From contig CASDUJ010000008.1 in NCBI GenBank assembly GCA_949283935.1, forward strand, positions 1 through 64,000: a stretch of 64,000 nucleotides of DNA. Reading direction: 5' to 3'. Source of the stretch: an uncultured bacterium (GTDB lineage Bacteria; Cyanobacteriota; Vampirovibrionia; Gastranaerophilales; JAILCC01). The notes under the pieces are model-generated. The model saw nothing but the letters and a program-made list of their open reading frames with translations. It made no database searches and was not told the origin of the DNA. Within the stretch, counting starts at the first letter, position 1. The number at the start of each line of letters is the position of its first letter. Below, piece after piece: positions 19,804 to 62,944 of the stretch. The position numbers and the translations under genes are program-made.

Positions 19804-19918
19804 CTAAGTTTTGTAAAATTTTTCCAAAAATAAGAATAAATTTAATTTAATTAGGGTATAAAAAACTTAGCGTTACAAAAATACAAGGATGTGTATTAGT
19901 AAGATAAGGAGAATCTTT

Positions 19919-20761
19919 ATGCCTAGTATTGATCTCAATACAAATGTTTTGTCTTTGGTTTTGCAAAACAATTTGTCTAAAACAACTCAAGCTTTACGTT
20001 CTTCTATGGAAAAACTTTCAACTGGCAAAAAAATTAACAAAGCTTCAGATGGAGCTGCACAACTTTCTATTTCAACAAAATTAGAAACTCAAATTTCAGG
20101 AAATACTATTGCTCAATCTAATGTGCAACAGGGAATGTTGGTTTTAAACCAAACAGATTCTGGACTGCAAAATATTAATGAAAATTTAGTTAAAATTAGA
20201 GATTTAGCTGTTCAGGCTTCAACTGATACTTATAGCCAAGAACAAAGAAATGCAATGGAATTAGAGGCCCAAGGATATTTAGATCAAATTAATAATATTG
20301 CCATTTCTACTTCTTTTAATGGTTTATCTTTACTTGATGGCAGTATTACAGATCTAAAATTACAAATAGGTGCTAATTCAGAAGATACCATGAATATTGG
20401 CAATGCTTTTTTAAGTGCTGAAGGCTCTTCTTTGGGCTTAACTTCTGCTGCTTTAAATACTGCTTTTTCTTCTGCAAACAATGCTAATTCTTTCATTGAA
20501 ACAGTAGATTCTGCCATATCTCAAGTTTCTTCTCATTTATCTGTTGTTGGAGCATTTTCTAATTCTCTTGATTCAACTTTAAATTCTTTGGCTGTTGAAC
20601 AAATTAATCTGGAATCTTCAAAATCTTTAATTATGGATGTAGATTATGCAAGTGAAATTTCAAAATTTGTACAACTACAAATACTACAACAAGCTTCTGT
20701 AAGTTTACTTTCTCAAGCAAATATGCAACCTTCTCTTGCATTAAATCTGCTTAATGGCTAA
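19919..20761 (+). CDS. Flagellin
   Basis: A short flagellin of 280 residues with conserved D0/D1 ends and almost no central variable domain. The N-terminal part has the KLSTGKKINKASDGAAQLSIS signature at about 40-60 with the SGNTIAQSNVQQGMLVL helix; the C-terminal helix ends in LSQANMQPSLALNLL. It forms the filament after export with FliS. ATG 19919 has AAGGAG eight bases upstream; an in-frame ATG at 19889 is unlikely. The usual SAEGSR-type Arg for TLR5 recognition was not evaluated. No good FliA box was found in front of it, unlike fliS. Confidence 0.95.
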   Translation: MPSIDLNTNVLSLVLQNNLSKTTQALRSSMEKLSTGKKINKASDGAAQLSISTKLETQISGNTIAQSNVQQGMLVLNQTDSGLQNINENLVKIRDLAVQASTDTYSQEQRNAMELEAQGYLDQINNIAISTSFNGLSLLDGSITDLKLQIGANSEDTMNIGNAFLSAEGSSLGLTSAALNTAFSSANNANSFIETVDSAISQVSSHLSVVGAFSNSLDSTLNSLAVEQINLESSKSLIMDVDYASEISKFVQLQILQQASVSLLSQANMQPSLALNLLNG

Positions 20762-44840: not shown

Positions 44841-44867
44841 TACAGTTTTAAAAAAACTTGCCGATAA
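44841..44867 (+). promoter_or_regulatory. Sigma-28 (FliA/SigD) promoter of the HD-GYP-like gene
   Basis: TACA (44841-44844), 15 bases, GCCGATAA (44860-44867). The -10 is a full consensus match and the -35 has one mismatch to TAAA. It ends 35 bases before ATG 44903 in non-coding DNA. Confidence 0.8.
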
Positions 44868-44902: not shown

Positions 44903-46261
44903 ATGTCAACAAACATTGGAGATAGCATGGATAATAAGAGGAAATTAGAAGCTGACCCAATAGAAGCAATTTTTGAACTAAATATGGGGGATTTTTTGAC
45001 AGAATATCTTATATCTGATGATTTACTCAAAAAAATTAATACCTCTAATCATGACAAAACAGAAGGACTAAAAAAACAACTTAAAGAATTAATTAATGTA
45101 TATTCTATAGATAATACATTAAATTTGTTAGGATTTAATAACAATGATGATTTTGTAATTTATAATTCTATTGCAAAAACTACAGTAAATATGCTAGATA
45201 TTGATGCCTGTCATATCTTTTTAACAAATGAAAATACAAATTTAATTGATATAGACAATGATTTAGTGTTGGTTGGAACATCTTTAGATAATTCATCTGA
45301 AATTTTTAAACAAAATATTGGACTAAAATTTGAAAATATTGACAATATTATTGTGAAATCTTTTCTTATGAATGATATAATTTCGCTTAAAAATTTAGAA
45401 GCAAATCCTGAATGGCAACCAATACAAGCATTAAATGAAGATAAAACAAAGTCAATAGTAATTGTTCCTATGAGTAGTAATTCTGGCAAAGTAGGAATTA
45501 TTTTACTTGAATCTTATAAAGAAAAATCTTTAATGAAAGAATTTACTGATTTAGTTGAAGTTACTGCCAAGCTTTTTGTAACATCAATGAATTTACAAAA
45601 ACTTGTTGAAGAAACGGGAAATCTTTTAAATGACGAAGAAACATCTCCTATGGAATTAAGACATATAAGAACGGAATTAACTGCAATTATTGGAGATTTA
45701 AGTGATGAACAACAAATTTTTGTTGAAGCTTTAGCAAAATCTGTTGATGCTAAAAGCCACTACCAAACTCATCATTCTTTGAAAGTAGCAGAACTAACAG
45801 CAAAAATATGTGATTATTTACAATTAAACGAAAAAACAAAAGAATTAATATATTATGCAGGTATGTTGCAAAATATAGGAAAAATTACTTTACCTGAAGA
45901 ACTTTTTACCAAAAAACAAAAACTGTCCAAAGAAGATTGGGACAAACTTCAAAATCATCCAAATGTTGGAGTAAGTTTATTAATGAAAATTAATTTTTTG
46001 TCAGAAGTTGTTCCCTATGTTCATTATCATAAAGAACGTTGGGATGGAAAAGGTGAACCAGAGGGATTGTCAGGAAATAGTATTCCTTTAGGTTCTAGAA
46101 TTATTGCTGTAAGCGATGCTTATACAGCTTTAACAAGCGATAGACCTTACAGAAAAGCTTTATCTAAACAAGAAGCTATTGAAACTTTAAAGAAAGAAGC
46201 TGGTATTAAATGGGATCCTGTTATTGTGGATGCTTTAGTTCATTTAGAATTAAATAATTAA
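44903..46261 (+). CDS. GAF + degenerate HD-GYP domain protein
   Basis: A 452-residue protein: N-terminal helical part, GAF-like domain (about 95-235: NMLDIDACHIFLTNENT, SIVIVPMSS), then HD-GYP fold from about 275. Ligand positions such as HHSLKVAELT, NHPNVGVSLL and the DAYTALTSDRPYR segment are present. But the HD pair is QN (MLQNIGKI, about 321-328) and GYP is GEP (HKERWDGKGEPEG). Loss of HD predicts no normal c-di-GMP hydrolysis; it may bind c-di-GMP or act through protein contact. A FliA box upstream links it to motility. Tail overlaps the GT2 gene by four bases. Confidence 0.86.
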   Translation: MSTNIGDSMDNKRKLEADPIEAIFELNMGDFLTEYLISDDLLKKINTSNHDKTEGLKKQLKELINVYSIDNTLNLLGFNNNDDFVIYNSIAKTTVNMLDIDACHIFLTNENTNLIDIDNDLVLVGTSLDNSSEIFKQNIGLKFENIDNIIVKSFLMNDIISLKNLEANPEWQPIQALNEDKTKSIVIVPMSSNSGKVGIILLESYKEKSLMKEFTDLVEVTAKLFVTSMNLQKLVEETGNLLNDEETSPMELRHIRTELTAIIGDLSDEQQIFVEALAKSVDAKSHYQTHHSLKVAELTAKICDYLQLNEKTKELIYYAGMLQNIGKITLPEELFTKKQKLSKEDWDKLQNHPNVGVSLLMKINFLSEVVPYVHYHKERWDGKGEPEGLSGNSIPLGSRIIAVSDAYTALTSDRPYRKALSKQEAIETLKKEAGIKWDPVIVDALVHLELNN

Positions 46262-57509: not shown

Positions 57510-58526
57510 TTATTCTTTTAATTTTTCTATTCTTTGTCCTTGTTTTTCGTCTAATTCAAAAATGATTCTGGAAATTAATTGTATAAGTGTTAGTCCAACT
57601 AAAGAATCTGTTGAATTTACTATGTATAATTGTTTGTCTTTTAAATTCAATTCTTCGTTTTCTATTTTTTTCGAAAAAAATAATTTTGCTTTTATAGAAA
57701 TTTTTTTCGTATTTTCCTTTATATTTGTGCAAATAATTTCTCTTAGTTCTTCATTTTCTTTTTCACAAATATTAGTAATATAAATTTCATTTTCAGTATC
57801 TAAAAAAATTTCTATTTTGAAATATCCTAAAGAATTTGTGGATATGTAAAAAAGTATTTGGGAGTTTTCTTTTTCTTTGGTAGCTGTTTTAGCCTCAATT
57901 TCATTTAAATCTTTGTCTTGAGGTGGAACTAAAGGAAGCCAAGGTAAATACATTTGAATAATATCTCTTATAAATTCTTGCGGATTTATTTGAACAGAAT
58001 TTGCAATGGAAGCACCTATTAGCATTATTTCTTTAAGTTGGGAGATATTATTTTGGCTCATATTAGCTGTTCCCATATATTTTAAAAGTTTATCGGCCAT
58101 AAGTACTGAATTTTTATTTAAATATTCTGCTAAAGAAATAAGGTTAACCTTTGCATTAGATTGTAAAAGTGCTAGTAAGCTTGCATTAGCAGTGTTTGTT
58201 CCTTGAGTATTTAAATTTTTTAATATTGTTGCTAATTGTGAATTTGTTGAATTTATTGAAAATTCATTTAATAAATTTGTCCATTCTTTTGGGAGTCCCA
58301 ACATATCTCGCAAGAAAATATTTTGCTGAATATTGTTCATAATATTCGTTGCAGTTTTAGATATTTGTGTATGTAAATTTTCTATTTGCTTAGAATTGAA
58401 ATTTGATAAATTTTCATTATTAGATGTTGAAATATTAAATTCTTTTGTTTCAGTAGTTTTTTGCGGTGTAGTAGTTTTATTAACGGAAAAAACTAAAGAT
58501 GCTAAGTTGGAAATATTAAAATTCAT
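57510..58526 (-). CDS. Unknown protein, possibly FliK-like hook-length regulator
   Basis: A 338-residue protein. Residues 1-70 are Thr/Asn/Ser-rich and disordered, followed by a helical segment (TNIMNNIQQNIFLRDMLGLP, LLALLQSNAKVNLIS). The C-terminal third (ILFYISTNSLGYFKIEIFLD, then IYITNICEKENEELREII) has the LG-x-hydrophobic-x-hydrophobic two-strand pattern and following helix of FliK C-domains. A disordered N-terminus plus a compact C-terminal domain is the FliK layout. No flagellar neighbours here, so the call is weak. Confidence 0.5.
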   Translation of the reverse strand: MNFNISNLASLVFSVNKTTTPQKTTETKEFNISTSNNENLSNFNSKQIENLHTQISKTATNIMNNIQQNIFLRDMLGLPKEWTNLLNEFSINSTNSQLATILKNLNTQGTNTANASLLALLQSNAKVNLISLAEYLNKNSVLMADKLLKYMGTANMSQNNISQLKEIMLIGASIANSVQINPQEFIRDIIQMYLPWLPLVPPQDKDLNEIEAKTATKEKENSQILFYISTNSLGYFKIEIFLDTENEIYITNICEKENEELREIICTNIKENTKKISIKAKLFFSKKIENEELNLKDKQLYIVNSTDSLVGLTLIQLISRIIFELDEKQGQRIEKLKE

Positions 58527-62125: not shown

Positions 62126-62238
62126 TTTAATCCATTAAAATTTCTTACTGAAAAAATAATACAATAAAAATAAGCCTTTGCGTAAAATTGGTTCAAAAAT
62201 TAATTTGTAACAAACTGTAAATATTTGCATAAAAATCC

Positions 62239-62265
62239 TAAAGTTTTCTTTTAATTAGCCGATAT
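62239..62265 (+). promoter_or_regulatory. Sigma-28 (FliA/SigD) promoter of two microprotein genes
   Basis: TAAA (62239-62242), 15 bases, GCCGATAT (62258-62265): the -35 is perfect, the -10 differs only at its last base, and the spacing is ideal. It ends 40 bases before ATG 62306 in non-coding DNA. Confidence 0.85.
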
Positions 62266-62305
62266 CTTAAGTGAATTGGTAAGGTATTGTAGAAAGGCGG
62301 TATAT

Positions 62306-62479
62306 ATGGCAATAAAAGAATTTTTTAGGAAATTAAATTTTGAAATAAAAAGAAGAGAAAACACTGGAGTATTTGCCCTTTTAGAATTTTATTTTCCTGA
62401 AGAAAAAGAAGGATTTGAAGAACTTGAAGTTGGCGAATCTCAAGTAAGTATTACAGGCAAACTTCAACCAGAACGTTAG
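62306..62479 (+). CDS. 57-residue protein of the FliA regulon, unknown
   Basis: AAAGG lies just before ATG 62306; a Met at 62276 is in frame but upstream of the ribosome site. The sequence (MAIKEFFRKLNFEIKRRENT, then GVFALLEFYFPEEKEGFEEL) begins as an amphipathic basic helix and ends in an acidic, beta-prone part (QVSITGKLQ). A near-consensus FliA box precedes it. A second small gene starts nine bases after its stop. No family recognised; probable motility or chemotaxis accessory. Confidence 0.65.
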   Translation: MAIKEFFRKLNFEIKRRENTGVFALLEFYFPEEKEGFEELEVGESQVSITGKLQPER

Positions 62480-62487
62480 GAGCTAAA

Positions 62488-62634
62488 ATGGAGCAGATAA
62501 AAGAGAAAAAGAGATCTAAACGCATTTTTTCGGTGCTTTTAGATGAGATAAAAAAGCTCGAAGAGAATATTTTGGATGACAATTCTCTTGTTATGAGCGA
62601 ATACATTTCAACTGCGCACAAAAACACAAAATAA
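62488..62634 (+). CDS. 48-residue protein of the FliA regulon, unknown
   Basis: AGGAGC lies six bases before ATG 62488, overlapping the previous gene's stop region. A Lys-rich start (EQIKEKKRSKRIF) leads into an amphipathic helix (SVLLDEIKKLEENILDD) and a polar end. Weak likeness to small Spo0E-type helical hairpins (an L-E-x-x-x-L-D-x-x-x-x-V-x-x-S-E order), not enough to assign. Its stop lies one base from the YggU stop on the other strand. Confidence 0.55.
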   Translation: MEQIKEKKRSKRIFSVLLDEIKKLEENILDDNSLVMSEYISTAHKNTK

Positions 62635-62635
62635 T

Positions 62636-62944
62636 TTATTTTAAAAGATTTGCGATTTTTGTGCGCAATTCTTTTTCTGAAATGTTTACTAAAAAAGTTT
62701 TAATTTTATTTTTGTCTCCTAAAATTAATTCAATAGAATTTTTAGGAATGTTCAAAGACTTAGATAACAAAGCTAATATTTCTTTATTAGCTTTGTTTTC
62801 TATTGGAGAGGAATTAAGTTTAGCTTTTATATATTCTTTTGTAATTTCTATTATTTTAGAACTAGAAGAATTAGGAATAACTTTTACTTGAAACGTTATT
62901 CCTCTTTTATGTTTGTTTATTTGAAAATCATTGATATTTTGCAT
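62636..62944 (-). CDS. YggU/DUF167 family protein
   Basis: A 102-residue protein with the DUF167 core: FQVKVIPNSSSSKI, KAKLNSSPIENKANKEILALLSKSLNIPKNSIEL and GDKNKIKTFLV. Conserved in all domains; function unknown. I start it at ATG 62944; a TTG at 62974 would add ten hydrophobic residues. It points away from the rel gene. Confidence 0.87.
   Translation of the reverse strand: MQNINDFQINKHKRGITFQVKVIPNSSSSKIIEITKEYIKAKLNSSPIENKANKEILALLSKSLNIPKNSIELILGDKNKIKTFLVNISEKELRTKIANLLK

Follow-up and report, generated by a model that had tools for sequence, protein, structure and literature searches.

Genes and features of the locus

The window, i.e., the whole stretch of 64,000 nucleotides that was analyzed, comes from an uncultured gut bacterium related to cyanobacteria and contains a small predicted transcription unit formed by two adjacent genes, ORF1 and ORF2, preceded by a sigma-28 (FliA) promoter. 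The features of this locus are the following:

62204..62221, minus strand: HLR1-like element TTTACAGTTTGTTACAAA, candidate site of an RpaB-type regulator (15/16 positions of KTTACAWW-N2-KTTACAWW)
62239..62246, plus strand: FliA -35 element TAAAGTTT (from the sequence; kept in the orthologues)
62258..62265, plus strand: FliA -10 element GCCGATAT (from the sequence; kept in the orthologues)
62272..62272, plus strand: predicted transcription start (from spacing only)
62293..62300, plus strand: ribosome-binding site of ORF1, AAAGGCGG (from the sequence)
62306..62479, plus strand: ORF1, acidic soluble microprotein of 57 aa (ORF, conservation, and codon usage)
62478..62482, plus strand: ribosome-binding site of ORF2, AGGAG, overlapping the TAG stop of ORF1
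62488..62634, plus strand: ORF2, microprotein of 48 aa, predicted to form one helix (ORF, conservation, and structure model)
62613..62667, plus strand: probable terminator (inverted repeat and T-rich tail) at the junction of ORF2 and a convergent DUF167 gene

The two tiny genes of 57 and 48 codons, each with a ribosome-binding site, that had been described in the original prediction were confirmed, and codon usage favors both frames: ORF1 scores +0.33 nats per codon, similar to long genes, and ORF2 scores about 0 in its frame versus -0.4 to -0.76 in the other frames. No membrane or hydrophobic segment was found in either protein. ORF2 was modeled as a single helix with a mean pLDDT of 83, and the model of ORF1 was poor (pLDDT 56). 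The inverted repeat overlaps the coding ends of both ORF2 and the convergent DUF167 gene and is followed by ATTCTTTTTCT; its z score is -3.4, and none of 200 shuffled sequences was as stable.

In agreement with the earlier statement that neither protein resembles a known flagellar family, searches of ORF1 and ORF2 against Pfam, NCBIfam, PHROG, and PDB did not match any family, and the profile matches to PDB were discarded as being at chance level. More specifically, no Pfam or NCBIfam match was obtained to FlgN, FliS, FliT, CheW, or other flagellar chaperones and chemotaxis proteins, nor to toxin or antitoxin families in Pfam, NCBIfam, or PHROGs, and an Rfam search of the operon gave no match. 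The two proteins represent new families, and standard annotation would probably miss both.

The pair lies behind a sigma-28 promoter

The FliA box at 62239-62265 reads TAAAGTTTTCTTTTAATTAGCCGATAT, i.e., TAAA (62239-62242), 15 bases, and GCCGATAT (62258-62265). It presents the -35 TAAA(G), the 15-base gap, and the GCCGATAA-like -10 of sigma-28 promoters, as do the boxes of the orthologous loci in two related genomes (G002 and G003). The box fits every specified position of the consensus TAAAGTTT-N11-GCCGATAW, of which 0.0002 occurrences would be expected in the window by composition. The exact form TAAAGTTT-N11-GCCGAYAW appears at four places in the 1.73-Mb genome, where 0.006 would be expected from base composition, and the box at 62239-62265 matches it with 0 mismatches. 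The promoter had been called near-perfect, and the fuller consensus and its rarity genome-wide bear this out. Another FliA-like box, at 58090 on the minus strand, falls inside a 338-aa ORF (57510-58526) and is probably due to chance.

The source genome (G000) encodes FliA (C41:26386-27054; TIGR02479, 238.6 bits, cut-off 189.6). FliA control of the ORF1-ORF2 pair is well supported at the sequence level by the near-ideal box, by the conservation of box and genes together in three genera, and by this fliA gene. The unit resembles the class-3 FliA-dependent flagellar genes of E. coli and other bacteria in its -35, spacing, and -10, and in being a small self-contained transcription unit. It differs from them in that its proteins have no known relatives, an HLR1-like element lies upstream, and FliA in Gastranaerophilales also outlives the flagellum.

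Conservation and distribution of the pair

Of 60 relatives searched, G003 and G002 have ORF1 (56 and 49% identity, respectively), with ORF2 adjoining it in both (57 and 35%). The order of the pair and the FliA box are common to the source genome and these two other genera of a single family, with identities of 35-57%, and the box is placed 30-42 bases 5' of ORF1 in the orthologous loci. Of the three hosts, G003 has a completeness of only 66%. The dN/dS ratio between the source genome and G003 is 0.38 for ORF1 and 0.19 for ORF2. Since they recur in the same order behind the same box in three genera, with such ratios, the comparison indicates that ORF1 and ORF2 are real genes under purifying selection. 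The neighborhood in G003 contains DUF167 and RelA/SpoT genes as in the source genome, with a different upstream gene, and that in G002 is wholly unlike. Thus, promoter, ORF1, and ORF2 persist as a unit although the flanking genes change.

The original prediction would have been contradicted by a lack of conservation of the ORFs or the promoter in close relatives, and both are kept in G002 and G003. It had also asked for a test of whether the two genes always follow a FliA box in Gastranaerophilales; this is true of all the close relatives that carry them, within the single family in which the pair occurs. Profiles built from three sequences each detected nothing convincing beyond the family when 286 genomes of the order were searched. 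Matches in other families had E values of 0.003 or worse and were rejected as chance, many being short, located in unrelated long frames, or interrupted by stops. No equivalent two-microprotein unit behind FliA boxes was observed among the loci read in other flagellated families.

An HLR1-like element precedes the promoter

Upstream of the -35, we have found an 18-bp element (62204-62221) that was absent from the original prediction and spans -68 to -51 relative to the predicted start, these distances being approximate since the start is inferred. The alignment of the three orthologous promoters revealed a tandem TGTAA-N5-TGTAA kept 5' of the -35; in reverse complement, this tandem agrees with the HLR1 site described for cyanobacterial RpaB, KTTACAWW-N2-KTTACAWW. 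The orthologous promoters of G002 and G003 match this consensus at 16/16 positions and that of the source genome at 15/16; the consensus is the cyanobacterial one taken from the literature (PMC13421787).

The exact TGTAA-N5-TGTAA tandem is present at 17 of the 44 FliA boxes of the family versus 0.08% of AT-rich control 60-mers, with its second half-site usually 23 bases 5' of the -35, or 33, i.e., one turn further. A perfect HLR1 consensus accompanies 14/44 of these boxes (0/3000 controls), and with at most one mismatch it accompanies about half of them (21/44, versus 0.2% of control 60-mers), in a shared orientation and helical position. When up to two mismatches are allowed, 27 of 28 sites have one orientation, and most lie between -68 and -51 relative to the predicted start. 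FliA boxes of other families have an HLR1 with at most one mismatch in only 1 of 37 cases. Within the family, the boxes of flagellin (L152), of a rod-like protein (L147), and of a small RNA are devoid of HLR1. In the window itself, three sites with at most one mismatch occur in 64 kb versus 1.2 expected, which alone is not significant; the case for the element derives from its conservation and from the constant spacing between such sites and FliA boxes, and not from the rarity of a single site.

In cyanobacteria, RpaB activates from HLR1 sites at about -66 to -45 (PMC13421787), and the -68 to -51 placement of the element agrees with such an activating position. Homologues of RpaB and of NblS have been noted in the non-photosynthetic Melainabacteria, where their role was left open (PMC3787301). 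The source genome encodes a 608-aa histidine kinase (L217, 10242-12068, plus strand) whose best NCBIfam match is NblS, with 351.8 bits, below the 1000-bit cut-off, WalK being the second; its gene is close to that of a FliA-driven 63-aa microprotein.

Although the candidate system is similar to HLR1/RpaB/NblS of cyanobacteria (PMC13421787, PMC6331805) in its 18-bp tandem, 10-bp period, nearly activating distance, and candidate NblS-like kinase, the host is non-photosynthetic, and the site is reversed and lies beside a FliA promoter instead of a housekeeping one. The promoter of the pair also shares with the WalR (YycF) system the tandem TGTAA half-sites, a presumed OmpR-family regulator, and a related kinase family (WalK is the second-best match of the L217 kinase), but the WalR period is 11 bp and that of the pair's promoter is 10 bp, as in HLR1. 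RpaB is an OmpR-family, light-response master regulator of photosynthesis genes in cyanobacteria, and WalR sites in Firmicutes have the form TGTWAH-N5-TGTWAH. From its sequence, 62204-62221 is probably the site of an RpaB-type response regulator. The regulator could instead be another member of the OmpR family, because WalR-type regulators recognize a similar tandem with an 11-bp period.

Other genes behind FliA boxes in the family

The genes read behind FliA boxes in four genomes of the family include that of flagellin (L152), those of an HD-GYP protein (44903-46261 of the window; L041 and L145) and of a protein of some 290-300 aa that matches MgtE_N (L051, L043, L049), the ORF1-ORF2 pair, and genes of orphan microproteins. 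The HD-GYP protein encoded at 44903-46261 (plus strand) is probably a c-di-GMP phosphodiesterase; its gene follows a FliA box with one mismatch (44841-44867, plus strand), and FliA boxes likewise accompany the orthologous genes of G001 and G003, that of G001 together with a perfect HLR1. Three further FliA-driven orphan microproteins, of 46 aa (L047/L052), 45-46 aa (L054/L055), and 61-63 aa (L004/L044), are each kept in two genera of the family and are mutually unrelated. Neither ORF1 nor ORF2 is similar to the other FliA-driven microproteins.

In the flagellin-less genome G001, FliA boxes, most of them with HLR1, are located before genes whose products are pilin-like or EF-hand-like and measure about 400-490 aa or more (L146, L148, L039, L042, L045, L060). 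Near fliA in the source genome, a gene for a 1305-aa protein (L218, 371-4288, minus strand) has a FliA-like box (L167) with the tandem TGTAA, and the N-terminus of this protein is similar to that of a protein encoded downstream of a FliA-HLR1 promoter in G001 (L042).

Behind several FliA boxes there is no ORF but a roughly 75-nt element, which comprises a covarying hairpin, the constant stretch ACCTCCTCCCC-AGTCTAGTA, and a terminator; the constant stretch ACCUCCUCCCC is anti-Shine-Dalgarno-like. With a model from which the promoter was left out, this small RNA was recovered from 276 of the 286 order genomes, aflagellate genomes among them, and 24 of 30 small-RNA loci read have a FliA-like box with a score of 13/16 or more (shuffle means near 10). 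The Rfam search of the small RNA gave no match. E. coli has four UTR-derived small RNAs that depend on FliA (PMC10578931); no relation to the 75-nt element is claimed. Its loci are the following:

G000:C27:29624-29695 (L170), minus strand: small RNA of the source genome (model match)
L050, L101, L106, L110, L116, L121, L124, L127, L128, L129, L136, L151, L160, L187-L216: small RNA, other loci

FliA beyond the flagellum and the possible role of the pair

The source genome has six flagellin-domain matches, one of them in the window, within 19889-20761. The pair is present in the three flagellin-bearing genomes of the family and is missing from G001, which retains fliA and has FliA boxes and FliA-HLR1 promoters before other genes. 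Of 18 genomes, 16 have a FliA above the curated TIGR02479 cut-off, among them G001 and the aflagellate G004 and G010, and none has a FlgM above its own. Two full-length types of FlhA were distinguished, one scoring about 880 bits that occurs only in genomes with flagellin and another scoring about 715 bits that occurs in 14/14 genomes tested; the latter and fliA are present in flagellin-less genomes (L183). A flagellum-derived export system and FliA therefore seem to be retained in Gastranaerophilales after loss of the flagellum. Partial flagellar gene sets have been noted in this order (PMC4040986, PMC5877343). Since fliA persists in aflagellate relatives, a FliA box in Gastranaerophilales is not proof of a flagellar function.

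The late-flagellar function that had been proposed for the pair is thus sustained in one respect, i.e., the pair tracks flagellin, although with three genomes against one, and weakened by the presence of fliA in genomes without a flagellum or flagellin. The pair may be a dedicated, family-specific late-flagellar factor (an export-coupled regulator, a filament chaperone, or a chemotaxis accessory), a possibility to which we assign a rather low probability. The FliA box, the absence of the pair from G001, a congener of G003, and the fact that FlgM is undetected in the order, so that an unrecognized anti-sigma factor must exist somewhere, if any, speak for it. However, the FliA-HLR1 promoter class is richest precisely in G001, no HLR1 accompanies the FliA boxes of the flagellin and rod-like genes, the pair is missing from other flagellated families, and it lies outside any flagellar gene cluster. 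Nothing was found in favor of the export-coupled (FlgM-like) or chemotaxis roles suggested earlier. The persistence of fliA in aflagellate genomes, the second FlhA type, and the pilin-like and EF-hand-like proteins driven by FliA-HLR1 promoters in G001 would instead suit a service to a non-flagellar surface program (pili, secreted proteins, or a second flagellum-derived export system) under FliA and RpaB-type control; this reading is likewise given a rather low probability, and G001 has most of that program yet lacks the pair. On present evidence, a flagellar and another surface role appear about equally likely.

It is unlikely that ORF1 and ORF2 make up the lineage's missing anti-sigma-28 (FlgM-like) module. 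Like FlgM, the proteins are small and under FliA control, and FlgM itself was not found in the 18 genomes searched, but neither ORF matches FlgM in Pfam (PF04316) or NCBIfam, other flagellated families that are FlgM-less too do not have the pair, and the FliA-driven protein of 61-63 aa (L004/L044) is an equally good candidate. We consider it very improbable that ORF1 and ORF2 are spurious or a toxin-antitoxin-like pair, as two short adjoining genes of narrow distribution might suggest, in view of their occurrence in three genera, the purifying selection, the kept promoter, and the lack of matches to toxin or antitoxin families.

A proposed mechanism

The reading that we favor, if by a modest degree of confidence, is that of a two-gene sigma-28 operon for which FliA and an RpaB-type regulator are jointly needed and whose small proteins act as a pair. 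The FliA holoenzyme would recognize TAAAGTTT-N11-GCCGATAT and start transcription near 62272, a step that is strongly supported. An OmpR-family regulator of the RpaB type, to which the motif statistics point, would bind the HLR1 element 5' of the -35 and activate the promoter, its signal probably coming from the NblS-like kinase; if the regulator activates in this way, the operon would need both a FliA state and a two-component signal. A further supported step is that ORF1 and ORF2 are translated together, giving small soluble proteins on which purifying selection acts. ORF2 might then be a single-helix partner or adaptor and ORF1 its acidic companion, and the pair might tune a target of the same phase, i.e., the flagellar or another surface apparatus, rather than provide structural parts.

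More broadly, we tentatively propose, at somewhat less than even confidence, that RpaB is a co-activator of the sigma-28 regulon in this non-photosynthetic family, where it would license the FliA promoters of orphan microproteins and surface genes, the pair included. The presence of a literature-defined RpaB site near the activating position in about half of the FliA promoters of the family offers a testable role for RpaB/NblS in Melainabacteria, and the ORF1-ORF2 operon would be a clean reporter for this hypothesis. If true, RpaB/NblS would have a role in motility or surface control outside photosynthesis.
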